Below, piece by piece: positions 8,898 through 30,894 of a DNA stretch of 37,730 bases (position 1 is the stretch's first letter; every line of letters starts with the position of its first letter). The DNA lies in NCBI GenBank assembly GCA_902781215.1, contig CACZIO010000031.1:1-37730 (forward strand), written 5' to 3'. The stretch is from an uncultured Lachnospiraceae bacterium (GTDB lineage: Bacteria > Bacillota > Clostridia > Lachnospirales > Lachnospiraceae). The notes beneath the pieces are model-generated. The model was not told the DNA's origin. It saw only the letters and a list, made by a program, of their open reading frames with translations, and did no database searches. Position numbers and translations under genes: made by a program.

Positions 8898-8927
8898 TTG
8901 ACAACTTCGGTTTTACGGTGCTACCAT
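8898..8927 (+). promoter_or_regulatory. SigmaA-type promoter of the Phe-leader / paaK operon
   Basis: A consensus -35 box TTGACA at 8898-8903 is separated by 18 bases from an extended -10 box, TGCTACCAT (hexamer TACCAT at 8922-8927). Transcription would start near 8934, giving about 190 untranslated bases before the leader peptide at 9126. The region from 8723 to 8897 holds nothing else that I can identify. Confidence 0.6.
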
Positions 8928-8993: not shown

Positions 8994-9125
8994 GATTGTA
9001 TTCAATCACCATTTAACTGTTTCACAGAACACACACCGGACGAATCCTTTTGCGTACAAAGAGCGTTTAAACAGGTACCAGATTTAGATAAGACAGAACG
9101 TCCGGATCTTTGACAGGAGTTTACG

Positions 9126-9224
9126 ATGAACCGCAGCCTCAACAGCACCCCCATCTTCGGGTTTAACTTTAGCTTTAGCTTTTACTTTACTGGCGATGAC
9201 AGTAAGGTTAGTTTGCTATGCTGA
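9126..9224 (+). CDS. Phe-rich leader peptide (attenuator ORF)
   Basis: A 32-codon ORF starts at an ATG preceded by AGGAG with seven bases spacing. It encodes a peptide whose centre is FGFNFSFSFYF: residues 11, 13, 15, 17, 19 and 21 are all Phe, and five of these six codons are TTT. Its stop lies 39 bases before a perfect 14-bp terminator hairpin (9264-9299), upstream of the phenylacetate-CoA ligase gene. This is the classic layout of an amino-acid-sensing attenuator such as pheA or pheST leaders. The inference is that ribosome stalling at Phe codons, when charged tRNA-Phe is scarce, would favour read-through. A partial competing pairing (GGTTAG at 9206-9211 with CTAACC at 9279-9284) is visible but was not folded. 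Confidence 0.8.
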   Translation: MNRSLNSTPIFGFNFSFSFYFTGDDSKVSLLC

Positions 9225-9263
9225 AGATGTGAGGGAGATTCCTGGTTCAGAAGAATCGTTCAC

Positions 9264-9303
9264 AAAGGGTGTGGCACTCTAACCGGTGCCACACCCTTTT
9301 TAT
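9264..9303 (+). terminator. Attenuator terminator of the paaK operon
   Basis: A perfect 14-bp stem (AAAGGGTGTGGCAC with its complement) and an 8-base loop end in a short T-run. It stands between the Phe leader peptide and the paaK-like gene, with no other upstream gene to end, which fits a regulatory terminator. Confidence 0.8.
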
Positions 9304-9312
9304 TTGCGCGTA

Positions 9313-9454
9313 GCAATGAGCCATGCGCGGACAAACGAAATGACAGCCGCTGGGAGCTTGCTCACAAGCGGATGGCTTTTCGTTTGGACGCATACGGCGA
9401 ATGCCGCGACAGTGAGCGAACTTCGTTCGCGAACCTGTCGGCATGGCTCATTGC
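9313..9454 (+). other. Multi-branched structured element in the paaK 5' region
   Basis: GCAATGAGCCATGC at 9313-9326 pairs perfectly with 9441-9454, closing a 142-base element. Inside are two further arms. One is CAAACGAAA (9332-9340) with 9378-9386, enclosing CCGCT/AGCGG and GAGC-TT-GCTC. The other is TGCCG...GACAG with CTGTC...GGCA, enclosing GCGAAC-TTC-GTTCGC (9416-9430). It could be an RNA structure in the leader or a small non-autonomous mobile element with terminal inverted repeats. I do not recognise a known riboswitch class. Confidence 0.7.
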
Positions 9455-9518
9455 GAATCCAGGTTACGTAATTTCAGAAACACCATTTATTCACGCCTCA
9501 AAGAAAGGGAGCCGCCTA

Positions 9519-10832
9519 ATGAAAATGAAGAGCTACTACCAGAAGGAAATCGAAACCGCCTCACGGGAGGAGATCCTGGCGATCCAGAACGAGAAGATCG
9601 TCAAGCAGGTCAAATACGTCTATGACAACGTTCCCTACTACCGCAATCTGATGGACCAGAAGGGTGTGAAGCCCGAGGACATCCAGAGTGTCGAGGATAT
9701 CAGAAAGCTCCCCTTCCTGACCAAGGACGACCTGCGCGAGGCCTATCCCTACGGCCTTCTGGGCACAGATCTCAAGAACTGCGTCCGCATCCAGTCCACC
9801 TCCGGCACGACCGGCAAGCGCGTCGTCGCCTTCTACACCCAGAAGGACATCGACATGTGGGAGGAGTGCTGCGCCAGAGCCATCGTCGCGGCGGGCGGCT
9901 CCAATGAAGACGTGGTCCAGGTCTGCTACGGCTATGGTCTCTTCACCGGCGGCCCCGGCCTCAACGGCGGCTCCCACAAGGTCGGCAGCCTGACCCTGCC
10001 CATGTCTTCGGGCAACACCGACCGCCAGATCCAGTTCATGATGGACCTCAACGCGACCATCCTGTGCTGCACCCCCTCCTACGCTGCCTTCATCGGCGAG
10101 TCCCTCGCGGAGCGCGGCTACAGGCCCGAGGACAACAAGCTCAAGGCCGGTATCTTCGGCGCCGAGCCCTGGACCGAGGAGATGCGCCGCAGCATCGAGA
10201 AGAGCCTGGGCATCAAGGCCTATGACATCTACGGCCTGACCGAGACCTCCGGCCCCGGCGTCTCCTTCGAGTGCGAGGAGCAGAAGGGCATGCACATCAA
10301 CGAGGACCATTTCTACGCTGAGATCATCAACCCCGAGACCGGCGAAGTGCTCCCCGAAGGCGAAAAGGGCGAGCTGGTCTTCACCTCCCTCGACAAGGAA
10401 GGCTTCCCGCTCCTGCGCTACAGGACCAAGGACATCTGCATCCTCTCCAGAAGGCCTTGCTCCTGCGGCAGGACCCACGTCAGGATGACCAAGCCCCTGG
10501 GCCGCAGCGACGACATGATGATCATCCGCGGCGTCAACGTCTTCCCCAGCCAGATCGAAGCTGTCCTCCTCAAGGAAGGCTACACGCCCAACTACCAGAT
10601 CGTGGTCGACCGCGAGAACAACACGGATACCTTCGACGTCTACGTCGAGTTCTCTCCCGAGCAGTTCTCCGACAAGATCTCCGATATCCAGGCCCGCGAG
10701 AAGTCTCTCAACGGCGCCATGCGGTCCATGCTGGGCATCGGCCCCAAGATCCACCTCGTGGCCCCCAAGACGATCGCCCGCTCCGAGGGCAAGGCTGTCC
10801 GCGTCATCGACAAGAGAAAGCTGCACGACTGA
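9519..10832 (+). CDS. paaK: Phenylacetate-CoA ligase (PaaK-type adenylate-forming enzyme)
   Basis: This 437-residue enzyme of the PaaK family would activate an arylacetate such as phenylacetate to its CoA thioester using ATP, in the cytoplasm. The AMP-binding P-loop STSGTTGKR is at about 93-101. YGLTETSGPG (238-247) is the adenylate motif. The C-terminal domain contains DDMMIIRGVNVFPSQIE, typical of PaaK. The ATG at 9519 is chosen because AGGGAG lies seven bases upstream and it matches the family start; the frame extends into the structured element. It lies behind a Phe attenuator and is followed, after 242 bp, by an ACT-domain gene. In methanogens and some anaerobes, such ligase/ACT pairs accompany indolepyruvate-type ferredoxin oxidoreductases. 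Confidence 0.9.
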   Translation: MKMKSYYQKEIETASREEILAIQNEKIVKQVKYVYDNVPYYRNLMDQKGVKPEDIQSVEDIRKLPFLTKDDLREAYPYGLLGTDLKNCVRIQSTSGTTGKRVVAFYTQKDIDMWEECCARAIVAAGGSNEDVVQVCYGYGLFTGGPGLNGGSHKVGSLTLPMSSGNTDRQIQFMMDLNATILCCTPSYAAFIGESLAERGYRPEDNKLKAGIFGAEPWTEEMRRSIEKSLGIKAYDIYGLTETSGPGVSFECEEQKGMHINEDHFYAEIINPETGEVLPEGEKGELVFTSLDKEGFPLLRYRTKDICILSRRPCSCGRTHVRMTKPLGRSDDMMIIRGVNVFPSQIEAVLLKEGYTPNYQIVVDRENNTDTFDVYVEFSPEQFSDKISDIQAREKSLNGAMRSMLGIGPKIHLVAPKTIARSEGKAVRVIDKRKLHD

Positions 10833-11074: not shown

Positions 11075-11509
11075 ATGGCGATCACCCAGTTATCCGCTTT
11101 TCTTGAAAATACACCCGGAACTCTCTATAAGGCCATCACAGCCATCTCCGGCGCCGGCATCAACATCCGCGCCCTCTCCGTCGCCGACACGCGCGACTTC
11201 GGGATCCTGCGCGTCATCGTCTCCGACATCGACAAGACCATCGAGATCCTCAGCGACGACACTGTCGTCACCCGCACCCAGGTCATCGCCGTCCGCATGA
11301 GCGACAAGGCCGGTGCCCTCAGGGAGATCCTCAGCGTCCTCCAGGAGGCCGGCATCAACATCGAGTACGTCTACGCCTTCACGGCCAATGCGGCCAACTC
11401 CGCCTACGTCGTGCTCCGCGTCAACGACATCGAAGAGGCGGAGGCCATCCTGGCAAAGAACGGCCAGCAGACCCTCTCCGACAAGGACCTGAACACCATC
11501 CTGCCCTGA
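11075..11509 (+). CDS. Tandem ACT-domain amino-acid-binding protein
   Basis: This 144-residue protein has two ACT domains (about residues 1-68 and 70-140). Each has the betaalphabetabetaalphabeta pattern, with the ligand-loop motifs NTPGTLYKAITAISGAGINI and DKAGALREILSVLQEAGINI. Such stand-alone ACT proteins bind amino acids and usually act as allosteric sensors. The start at 11075 has an ideal AAGGAGGT seven bases upstream. The gene forms an operon with the phenylacetate-CoA ligase. Combined with the Phe-rich leader, an aromatic amino acid is the natural ligand guess, but this is inference. Confidence 0.9.
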   Translation: MAITQLSAFLENTPGTLYKAITAISGAGINIRALSVADTRDFGILRVIVSDIDKTIEILSDDTVVTRTQVIAVRMSDKAGALREILSVLQEAGINIEYVYAFTANAANSAYVVLRVNDIEEAEAILAKNGQQTLSDKDLNTILP

Positions 11510-21297: not shown

Positions 21298-22932
21298 TTA
21301 ATCCTCAAATGGAACAACCGCACCATCATAAGTATCAATAATGTACTGTTTGATTTCCTGTGATTTCAGTACTTCAGCAAGTGCCAGGATTCCTTCCTTA
21401 TTTTCATTTCCTTCTTTTACTACAAGAACATTTACGTATGTCTGTGCAGCGATGGAATCGCTGCTTTCATATGCGACTGCGTCATGTGCTACGGAAAACC
21501 CTGCTTCAAGAGCATAGTTACCATTTAACACAACAAATGCAACTTCATCTTTTACACGGGATACCTGAGCTGCCTCAAGCTCCTGAATATTGATATTGTA
21601 AGGATTCTCTTCAATGTCCTTTACGGTTGCTTTCAGGTCAGCACCTTGCTTCAAAGTGATAATGCCGTTATCCTGGAGGAGCAGCAGTGCTCTGGCCTCG
21701 TTCGTGGTGTCGTTCGGCACTGCGATCACATCGCCGTCAGTAAGTTCTGCCAGATCTGCCTTTGTACCGGGATAGATTCCGAATGGCTCATAGTGGATGC
21801 CTGCGACAGAAACAAGGGCCGTACCATTTTCCGCATTAAAATCGTCAAGATAAGGAACATGCTGGAAGTAATTTGCATCAATATCACCGCTGTCAACCAC
21901 GAGATTCGGCTGAACATAATCTTCAAATTCAGTAACTTCCAATGTCCATCCCTGATCTGCAAGAAGCTTTGCTGCCTGAGCAAGGATCTCTGCGTGAGGA
22001 GTAGGAGAGGCCGCTACCGTAATGGTGCCTTTGCTTTCGGTTGTTTCGGAAGCAGCTGCTACACCGCCTTCAACTACAAGAGTATCTTCATAATCTTTTC
22101 CATAAGTATCAAGCAGGGTTTCTTCATAATCTGCATGGAAGAAATTCTCATTGCCAAGGGCGGCAATCTCGTCGTTCAGCCAGTTAAGAAGGCTTTCATT
22201 TCCCTTTGTTACGGCCGGTGCGATCGTATCTGCGCTGCCAAGAGAAGGGATACCAACGGTGTATCCGGGATTTTCAATTGTGAATGCAATGACCTCTGTA
22301 TTGTCATTGGCCCATGCAACACCATTGCCATTTTCAAATGCAGTTTTTGCTTCTGCATATGCATCGTACTTCTGAAGTTTAATATTCGGATAATTCTTCT
22401 CCAAATACGTTTCAGCCGTTGTACCGGAAATAACAATGACTTCGTCATCGGCACCGAGCTCATCAAGGCTTGTTATGACGTTGTCTTCAGGTGAAACAAC
22501 ACCCAAGGCCACATTCATATATGGAAGTGCAAAATCTACTTCCTGTGCGCGTTCTTCTGTAACCGTGAAGTTTGCAAGAATGATATCAACCTTACCGGTC
22601 TGAAGATACTCAATACGGTTTGCCGCCTCTGTTGAAACATAGTTTATTTCAACACCAAGATCTTCCCCGATGCGATTTCCGAAGTAAACATCGTACCCCT
22701 GATATTCACCATTCTCATCTACATAGCCAAAAGGACTCTTATCAGAAAATACACCAATGTTGATGGTTCCGCTTTCTTTGATTTCGTCAACCGTTCTGTA
22801 CACAACCTTTTCTGCGGATGTGTTATTTTGTGTCTCAGTGGCAGTCTGTTTTGCTCCGCATCCGGTAAGGGAACCTATGGCAAGTGTTAATCCAAGTAGT
22901 GCAGCTCCTGCACGTTTCAAATTCTTTTTCAT
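21298..22932 (-). CDS. Fused dual substrate-binding lipoprotein (SBP_bac_3 + NlpA/MetQ)
   Basis: This 544-residue lipoprotein has signal and lipobox LTGC (Cys25). Residues about 50-290 form a family-3 (polar amino acid/cystine type) binding domain: GTINIGVFSDKSPFGYVDENG, GYDVYFGNRIGEDLGV, DIILANFTVTEERAQEVDF. Residues about 300-544 form a complete MetQ/NlpA domain: GTITVAASPTPHAEIL, DANYFQHVPYLDDFN, HYEPFGIYPGT, and VFVV-type strands to the end. The two halves match the two transporters encoded downstream (MetNI-type and HisMQ/GlnQ-type). One anchored receptor could thus serve both. AGAGGAAAAT precedes the ATG. The expected two separate genes are not present. Confidence 0.93.
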   Translation of the reverse strand: MKKNLKRAGAALLGLTLAIGSLTGCGAKQTATETQNNTSAEKVVYRTVDEIKESGTINIGVFSDKSPFGYVDENGEYQGYDVYFGNRIGEDLGVEINYVSTEAANRIEYLQTGKVDIILANFTVTEERAQEVDFALPYMNVALGVVSPEDNVITSLDELGADDEVIVISGTTAETYLEKNYPNIKLQKYDAYAEAKTAFENGNGVAWANDNTEVIAFTIENPGYTVGIPSLGSADTIAPAVTKGNESLLNWLNDEIAALGNENFFHADYEETLLDTYGKDYEDTLVVEGGVAAASETTESKGTITVAASPTPHAEILAQAAKLLADQGWTLEVTEFEDYVQPNLVVDSGDIDANYFQHVPYLDDFNAENGTALVSVAGIHYEPFGIYPGTKADLAELTDGDVIAVPNDTTNEARALLLLQDNGIITLKQGADLKATVKDIEENPYNINIQELEAAQVSRVKDEVAFVVLNGNYALEAGFSVAHDAVAYESSDSIAAQTYVNVLVVKEGNENKEGILALAEVLKSQEIKQYIIDTYDGAVVPFED

Positions 22933-22996
22933 AATTATTTTCCTCTTTTCGAATTATTAAGTGATCGGTTGACACCGGTATGAGGAATCTGAGCGC

Positions 22997-28223: not shown

Positions 28224-28534
28224 CTTTTCCCGTTTTTTGCACACAAAAAACACCGCATGAATCAGTGATTATGCCGTGTCATTGTTCATGCTCTTTTTTA
28301 CAAATACTGGTAGGTTGACCGGTTTCCCTGTCAGCCCCGGAGGCTCTGAGGCCTCGGCGCAGTCCCATGCAGCTTCACGAATATGTCCCCTGCGAATCCT
28401 GTTCTCACGGATCACGTTCTTCACGAAGCTGTTTAGGGGCTTTTGCTCAAAGAATCGAATATTCAATTTCAAATATCATACCATACTATCCTCAGTATTT
28501 CACTTACATAGATCAAATTCCATCAAAAATCCAT
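28224..28534. other. Intergenic region upstream of the NTPase operon
   Basis: I see no supported gene. A 67-codon minus-strand frame at 28269-28472 lacks a ribosome site and a recognisable domain. Any promoter of the NTPase operon should lie here, but no clear boxes stand out. Confidence 0.4.
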
Positions 28535-29957: not shown

Positions 29958-30894
29958 CGCTTCTTTCTTCTACGAGCTGTTGGAAATCCGCTTTCATATT
30001 TTCCGGCAGATAGGAATTGCGGATTTCTGAGAGAAATGTTTCTTTGCAGCGAAGGATCTGTGTGACCAGTCCCGATGCAGCTTTTTCCGGTATGCCCAGC
30101 GAATCTGCCAGAGCCTTGAAGTCCTTCTTTCGTATGTTTCTTTTTTTCCCGTTCACTGTCAAGGCCATCTGTTCCTTGTCGCTCGGCATGATGATATTCA
30201 CAGGAAGAAGATCATAGGCCGGGGAAAGAAAGAAGGTGCGGCTGGCCGGCTTATCTTCAATCAGTGAGAAATTTTTCAGATGCATGTCAGAGTTTCCCGT
30301 GACAAAGCAGAACAGCAGCCTGTAAAACAATTCTGTATTATCCAATCCTACATTTCTGGAATACTTCCTGATAATCCTTCCACAGTTTTCGTAGGAACCT
30401 TTATATTTATCCGCTGTGACCCGGTTCGATAGCTGACAGAAATCCTCCATGGCATACTGCCTGTCATGATCCCGGTCAATCCTTTTTGTAATATAAGCAT
30501 ATTTTCCCTGCATGGATATCAATGCATGCGGAACCGTTTTGATCTTTGCTTTCTCCGCCATCTTCATGACGAGATATTCCGCTTCCGGCAGGCAGGGAAA
30601 CTCTTTTGACTGCGGTTTCAGGATGTAGCCGGTCGGATAATCAACAATTGTCAGCCTCGCTGTCTGATCAACGGTCTCCAGATGAAGAGACAGCTTTTTC
30701 TGAACCCCGGGAACAGTGAGTCCCTTGCTGACAGTTGTATTCGCAAGTTTTTCCAGGTCACTCTCCGAGCAGTCCAGCTCAGGAATCTGCGCCGTCCCGA
30801 AAAAGCGGCGGATACATTTTGTATGCCACCTTGTTTTCAGCTCATATGCACTTGCCCCGGCCAACTCCTTGTTGCAACATAAACATCTGCTCAT
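29944..30894 (-). CDS. hipT: HipA/HipT-like serine kinase toxin
   Basis: This 316-residue kinase is of the HipA C-terminal (HipT-type) fold. A short N-terminal Cys cluster (C4, C7, H24, C27) looks like a zinc ribbon. The Gly-rich loop is GVQKKLSLH (63-71), the ATP lysine is K93 in GYILKPQ, the catalytic loop is TGNSDMHLKNFS (199-210) and the metal Asp is 227 in SPAYDLLP. HipT of E. coli phosphorylates tryptophanyl-tRNA synthetase; the target here is unknown. It follows the hipS-like gene after 3 bases. Its last residues (RSGCLI) are encoded by sequence shared with the surface-gene remnant, suggesting a recombination junction. Confidence 0.87.
   Translation of the reverse strand: MSRCLCCNKELAGASAYELKTRWHTKCIRRFFGTAQIPELDCSESDLEKLANTTVSKGLTVPGVQKKLSLHLETVDQTARLTIVDYPTGYILKPQSKEFPCLPEAEYLVMKMAEKAKIKTVPHALISMQGKYAYITKRIDRDHDRQYAMEDFCQLSNRVTADKYKGSYENCGRIIRKYSRNVGLDNTELFYRLLFCFVTGNSDMHLKNFSLIEDKPASRTFFLSPAYDLLPVNIIMPSDKEQMALTVNGKKRNIRKKDFKALADSLGIPEKAASGLVTQILRCKETFLSEIRNSYLPENMKADFQQLVEERSGCLI

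Follow-up and report, generated by a model that had tools for sequence, protein, structure and literature searches.

The DNA stretch analyzed here (referred to as the window) comprises 37,730 nucleotides of an uncultured Lachnospiraceae bacterium (assembly GCA_902781215.1, contig CACZIO010000031.1, positions 1 to 37,730). It contains an operon with a paaK-like gene, predicted to encode a phenylacetate-CoA ligase, and a gene encoding a protein with a pair of ACT domains (together referred to as paaK-ACT), preceded by a short Phe-rich ORF and a terminator (Table 1). An earlier, sequence-only reading had described this ORF as one of 32 codons with an AGGAG site and Phe at residues 11, 13, 15, 17, 19, and 21, followed behind its stop codon by a perfect 14-bp terminator ahead of the paaK-like gene, and both features were confirmed (at 9126-9224 and 9264-9299, respectively). 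The two terminator arms (9264-9277 and 9286-9299) are 14 nt each and 100% complementary, with TTATTT next, and paaK starts 219 bases past the hairpin. As in an attenuator, an intrinsic terminator lies between the leader ORF and the first structural gene, and the predicted ORF combines a ribosome-binding site with a cluster of putative regulatory codons. The promoter-like sequence further upstream has its TG before the second hexamer, and a ttgac together with a TGnTAnnAT-like hexamer recurs, judged by eye, across 12 aligned upstream regions.

Table 1. Features of the paaK-ACT leader region and operon (window coordinates).
Feature	Position	Strand	Basis or remark
Promoter-like TTGACA-18-TACCAT, TG preceding the second hexamer	8898..8927	+	Upstream of leader
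AGGAG Shine-Dalgarno of leader ORF, six bases 5' of ATG	9115..9119	+	Read directly
Leader peptide ORF, Phe-rich, 32 aa, MNRSLNSTPIFGFNFSFSFYFTGDDSKVSLLC	9126..9224	+	Predicted ORF; conservation in relatives
Region 1, six Phe codons F11-F21, partly the 5' strand of the protector stem	9156..9188	+	
Inner 1:2 protector hairpin CTTTACTG/CAGTAAGG, sequestering the start of region 2	9185..9207	+	
Region 2, antiterminator 5' strand GGTTAGTTTGCTATGC, immediately 5' of the stop codon	9206..9221	+	
Intrinsic terminator (3:4) with T-rich tail	9264..9303	+	
Region 3, antiterminator 3' strand GTGTGGCACTCTAACC, within terminator 5' arm and loop	9269..9284	+	
paaK-like phenylacetate-CoA ligase	9519..10832	+	Domain, equivalog and solved-structure matches
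ACT domain pair protein	11075..11509	+	PF19571, 3.4e-22

Two other elements of the window are recorded in passing. Between the terminator and paaK lies a fold-back element of 142 nt (9313-9454) whose ends are perfect inverted repeats of 14 nt (GCAATGAGCCATGC), which is a REP-like or mobile repeat; the segment spanning it (9300-9480) folds at z -6.8. Its end sequence was seen again behind the attenuator in several relatives, as well as elsewhere (L131, L199, and L181), whereas 234 of 255 loci lack an exact match to it. A molybdenum/tungsten cofactor riboswitch is present at 28287-28454 on the minus strand (43 bits vs. a gathering score of 36).

We compared this region among 62 genomes of the source's genus. 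PaaK searches found full-length orthologues at 89-100% identity in 20 of them, the next matches being at most 76% identical, contig-end pieces aside. The leader element is present upstream of all 20, with its Phe codons, terminator, and overlapping hairpins kept, while the upstream spacer and the N-terminal start of the peptide vary, the comparison being one that the sequence-only reading had asked for. In 19 of the 20 genomes paaK is directly next to the leader, and in the remaining one (G032) the order is leader, a trpB-like gene, paaK, and ACT. A DNA pattern made from the leader (GTAAGGTTNRTTTG) matched 23 times in 22 of the 62 genomes, namely 20 paaK-type leaders, one Tyr leader (L133), and two chance-like matches (L111 and L118); the reversed pattern, used as a control, matched once. 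We further built a covariance model (referred to as R1) that covers the terminator and the 3' half of the leader, using the 20 paaK-type elements and the Tyr element. R1 matched 24 of the 62 genomes at E of 0.1 or lower, 23 of them strongly (E of 4.4e-9 or better), most of these matches not being independent as they had helped build the model; G032, G065, and G011 are outside it, and G013 is identical to one of its members over the aligned stretch. The match in G085 is a plain terminator only, and among six weak matches within the genus (E 0.01-0.08) no aromatic leader was seen in the five inspected (G010:C4 was left out). Behind the 23 strong matches is paaK in 20, trpB-like-paaK-ACT in G032, and a contig end in G083 and G011, where a C-terminal paaK piece is located elsewhere. 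In G013, paaK is split over two contigs and the leader accompanies the N-terminal half. An in-frame TGA flagged in three relatives is an ordinary stop codon in the two that were located.

The Phe codons of these 23 leaders are strongly conserved. There are six or seven Phe per leader in 22 of them, and four Phe plus one Trp in G032; when the leaders are aligned on their last Phe, this residue occupies positions 0, -2, -4, -6, and -8 in 23, 23, 21, 22, and 20 leaders respectively, which answers the question, raised from the sequence alone, of whether the Phe codons would persist in related genomes. Counted from codon 2 through the last Phe, 143 of 427 residues are Phe (TTT 104 times, TTC 39 times), and these codons remain Phe across T/C changes, whereas the other codons, including the in-between positions and the N-terminus, vary. 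Pairing could account for part of the TTT conservation.

The leader is uncommon among named records. Among 80 of them containing a paaK relative, four of which had less than 900 bases upstream, it is present in four (L031-L034, 89-92% identity) and absent from 76. All four are MAGs; two carry the title Lachnospiraceae, and the others Ruminococcus sp. and Eubacteriales. By name, two of them come from reindeer and red deer, and RUG14002 comes from a rumen set. In the 76 leaderless records, we found a short ORF with at least four Phe per 12 residues in eight and a terminator-like hairpin in two, with both, overlapping, in L074. An order-wide search with R1 (392 genomes, nine candidates scored in each) returned three weak matches besides the source genome, none with an aromatic leader. 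As far as these searches go, of which the order-wide one was too shallow to speak against occurrences elsewhere, the predicted paaK leader is confined to one genus-level group. Among paaK paralogues (67-74% identity), none of the 10 upstream regions scanned had the leader-terminator arrangement. In two of the paralogue upstreams (L018 and L029), an AT-rich terminator-like hairpin is overlapped by an ORF with four to five aromatic residues. Seven contain an ORF MFIYRD.., resembling the end of a DnaB helicase.

The leader RNA is predicted to form overlapping protector, antiterminator, and terminator hairpins; folding for mutually exclusive hairpins was a check that the sequence-only reading had asked for. 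In the 1:2 protector, the Phe-codon strand pairs with GTAAGGTT and beyond, and region 2 is in turn nearly complementary to the 5' arm and loop of the terminator (9269-9284). In these modelled structures the antiterminator excludes the terminator and the protector excludes the antiterminator, as in a ribosome-mediated attenuator. Across 21 sequences (20 distinct), 87.2% of antiterminator cells are paired vs. 22-45% in slid versions, and for the terminator 91% vs. 33-59%, the observed structures outscoring the slid versions partly because they were taken from the same sequences. Two of the 16 antiterminator pairs changed on both sides, including a G-C to A-U change in nine of 20 rows; 30 of 500 shuffles matched this count of two compensated pairs and none of 500 matched the covariation score. 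In the terminator, eight pairs changed on both sides. Covariation is thus moderate for the antiterminator and strong for the terminator. With region 2 shuffled, the observed pairing was reached in eight of 1050 trials.

We then folded transcripts of the 21 sequences truncated 5' of the terminator 3' arm. With the Phe codons blocked, as by a stalled ribosome, 13-15 antiterminator pairs formed in 21 of 21; without a ribosome, the protector won in 17 and the antiterminator was the minimum in four. With a ribosome at the stop codon, which blocks region 2 by construction, all 21 full-length folds kept the terminator. When the stalled state was folded at full length, the terminator beat the antiterminator for 20 of the 21 sequences, and the predicted switch must therefore be kinetic and set by the order of transcription, as in classical attenuators.

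Based on these results, we propose the following mechanism. When Phe is plentiful, the ribosome would pass the Phe codons to the stop codon and cover region 2, and the terminator would then form ahead of paaK. When Phe is scarce, the ribosome would stall on the alternate Phe codons and break the protector hairpin, and the freed region 2 would pair with the terminator 5' arm and loop, allowing transcription to read through. Since stalling at Phe codons would give read-through, the operon would be made when Phe is short. It is very probable, in our view, that a ribosome-mediated transcription attenuator responding to charged tRNA-Phe governs paaK-ACT in this way, likely for the synthesis of Phe from phenylacetate. 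The attenuation mechanism itself is well supported by comparison of leaders, codons, structures, and gene pairing; we infer the response to Phe charging, the direction of the enzymes, and the role of the ACT protein. The sequence-only reading had proposed translational attenuation by Phe, of which the control by Phe stands, the mechanism being instead transcription attenuation coupled to translation.

Aromatic leaders were also sought at chosen genes, and their codons were found to be exchanged between targets. In G018, another element, built in the same way but with Tyr codons (leader MRQQFTIADLYYYYLYFTP), is located before a DAHP synthase gene (aroF) and a prephenate dehydrogenase gene (tyrA), with its stop codon 5' of region 2. 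This type of aroF is present in seven of the 62 genomes, and leaders were found at four: besides G018, a Tyr leader (YYYYF) precedes the DAHP synthase gene of G002, where a long-loop terminator-like hairpin is visible by eye and was missed by the scan, and in G062 and G032 an aroF adjoined by prephenate dehydratase (PDT) is preceded by a Phe leader and a terminator. At the other three (G064, G017, and G073) no leader was found. The pheA of the source genome (L177:1016-1120, contig G000:C118) has a Tyr/Phe-rich leader (MTEPRMLDKTYRFYFYFFTGGVKECFVMHTNREQ) with a predicted antiterminator and a terminator, and Tyr/Phe leaders are present at nine of 18 pheA loci in 17 genomes, the source genome included. 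The strict scan found a perfect terminator at four of these nine, that of the source genome being imperfect, read by eye and folded; the other nine loci were without a leader by the scan, one having only 288 bases upstream. G014 has a mixed leader of the same family (YSFWFNFTFYF; L158, contig G014:C55) before a sodium:solute symporter gene, for which none of the other 61 genomes has a match at E 1e-100. The stalled fold of the source-genome pheA leader has 13 antiterminator pairs, nine of which are still there with the ribosome at the stop by a loose count, and by the same count 8-12 pairs are left at the stop position in the pheA, G018, G014, and G032 trpB-like leaders.

The leaders therefore sort by target: Phe before paaK-ACT and aroF-PDT, Phe plus Trp before trpB-like-paaK-ACT, Tyr before aroF-tyrA, and mixed aromatic before pheA and the symporter. 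At pheA, aroF-PDT, aroF-tyrA, and the trpB-like gene, the regulatory codons fit the downstream gene. As the other aromatic leaders precede aromatic synthesis genes and one transporter, we argue that paaK-ACT is likewise part of Phe supply, in which case its codons would match the product of the operon. A broader picture, to which we give about even chances, is that this genus (uncultured, probably gut-dwelling, and Lachnospiraceae-like) runs much of its aromatic amino acid supply via leader attenuators with exchanged codons, with paaK-ACT as the dedicated entry of phenylacetate into Phe synthesis, and that the G014 symporter may import aryl acids or aromatic amino acids.

Phe synthesis from phenylacetate by rumen bacteria was reportedly described by Allison in 1965. 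In the route considered here, PaaK would activate scavenged phenylacetate to phenylacetyl-CoA, an indolepyruvate-type ferredoxin oxidoreductase (IOR) encoded elsewhere in the genome would carboxylate it to phenylpyruvate, and transamination would yield Phe, which the ACT pair may sense. The paaK product contains AMP-binding and AMP-binding_C_2 domains, and the solved chains closest to it belong to PaaK (2y27, 8.3e-124; 4r1l, 4.8e-119). The IOR alpha subunit of the source genome scores over its cut-off, with the beta subunit adjoining. Prephenate dehydratase matches are present in 19 of the 23 leader genomes, so phenylacetate would not be the sole route to Phe. In addition to pheA, the source genome encodes a protein with a lipoprotein-like start (LASC, by eye) and a prephenate dehydratase domain (L176:572-1720, minus strand, contig G000:C17), possibly an exported second prephenate dehydratase.

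The attenuator may be real and Phe-responsive with paaK-ACT doing something other than making Phe, e.g., disposing of aryl acids, acting on another substrate, or being expressed in starvation for another reason. We consider this unlikely, though it is the strongest of the alternatives. The paaK product scores 515.3 bits against the NCBIfam equivalog TIGR02155, below the cut-off of 646.3, and the same genome contains a second paaK-ACT pair (L179:6187-8106, contig G000:C63; paaK 71% identical) with no attenuator, which may serve the other direction or another substrate. Against such a role, the predicted induction by Phe starvation fits PaaK working toward Phe synthesis, aromatic-codon leaders precede pheA and aroF-PDT, and the TrpB-like gene of G032 (a TIGR01415 match over the cut-off) shares its operon with paaK-ACT. 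IOR also co-occurs with the leader: IOR alpha (over the cut-off, or a fragment of at least 270 bits, a threshold chosen after the list had been seen) is present in 21 of 23 leader genomes vs. 15 of 39 others (Fisher p 4e-5, kinship ignored), and by the curated cut-off alone in 17 of 23 vs. 14 of 39. The two leader genomes in which IOR alpha was not found (G032 and G009) are both less than 80% complete. In eight relatives (G013, G024, G033, G063, G065, G077, G079, and G081), iorA is located 6 to 7 kb from the second paaK. Among the 35 genomes with an iorA match, 24 upstream regions (two shorter than 200 bases) were scanned and had no leader with a terminator; L217 has a W/Y/I-rich ORF, and L215 and L216 have a hairpin.

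Ligand-dependent stalling by the nascent peptide, as in TnaC, offers another way to halt a ribosome on the leader, here by the leader peptide together with phenylacetate or Phe as a tunnel ligand rather than by uncharged tRNA. The C-terminus SKV(S/N/D)LLC, kept in most leaders, is what such an arrest peptide might retain. In G067, however, the same bases are kept and read in another frame (AVRLICHAEEL), from which we infer that this end is kept as RNA rather than peptide, and the G029 leader reads past the region. The S/N/D codon moreover covaries with the terminator loop, and the regulatory codons become Tyr or Trp according to the downstream gene. Peptide arrest is accordingly given very little weight against stalling at Phe codons.

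A chance Phe-rich ORF ahead of an unrelated terminator is most improbable: although three short ATG ORFs within the window have at least six Phe per 11 residues, so that the Phe run alone is not decisive, the weight lies on the conservation of the element, compensatory changes included, ahead of each of the 20 full-length orthologues. A Phe run of this density occurred at all in two of 200 dinucleotide shuffles of the window, which were up to 26 bases shorter than the window. The other two ORFs (22877-22960 and 30092-30217, both on the plus strand) show no terminator within the next 60 bases and are probably due to chance. Equally negligible is a T-box or other known riboswitch at the leader, for while Phe T-boxes are the usual control in Firmicutes, no Rfam family reached its gathering score there. 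Matches to Rfam at E up to 10 were three at chance level, none a T-box or leader. At the gathering score, a scan of 12 among the 76 named paaK records without the leader gave only an FMN and a ZMP-ZTP riboswitch, and a scan of 12 further loci gave only one tRNA, in two overlapping G032 loci.

The predicted paaK-ACT attenuator joins the ribosome-mediated attenuators of the classical type, though its target is unusual. The pheA and pheST leaders of Proteobacteria are ribosome-mediated attenuators; the leader described here resembles them in its Phe-rich peptide, in its alternative protector, antiterminator, and terminator, and in its predicted induction by Phe starvation, and differs in its paaK-ACT target, its alternate Phe codons, its lineage, and the lack of an Rfam match at threshold. 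In Acholeplasma, the uORFC-13-1 motif upstream of aroF is likewise a candidate uORF with a terminator behind it before an aromatic pathway gene, but belongs to another lineage and gene and has at least one Phe codon, compared to mostly six or seven in paaK leaders (PMC8632094). Leader-peptide transcription attenuators are also described for histidine operons of other Firmicutes, where His-leaders were found by comparison in lineages without HisR and T-box control (PMC9413887). Comparison similarly revealed classical attenuators in Actinobacteria, with leader peptides and terminators before amino acid genes such as trp; these belong to another phylum and serve other amino acids, the sections seen naming no Phe leader (PMC1262725). 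Attenuation of paaK itself was not found in the literature searched, most subscription journals lying outside it. Rumen cultures can make Phe from phenylacetate, the same conversion as proposed for this operon, which the excerpt consulted presents as a biochemical observation with no gene or regulator named (PMC7356843, citing Allison 1965).

The predicted Phe-starvation switch on paaK-ACT thus points to a candidate gene for the first step of Phe synthesis from phenylacetate in the rumen, and would provide regulatory evidence on the direction of an otherwise ambiguous PaaK. It also suggests that classical ribosome-mediated attenuation apparently controls aromatic genes in a group of Firmicutes, in which T-boxes are the expected control of such genes.
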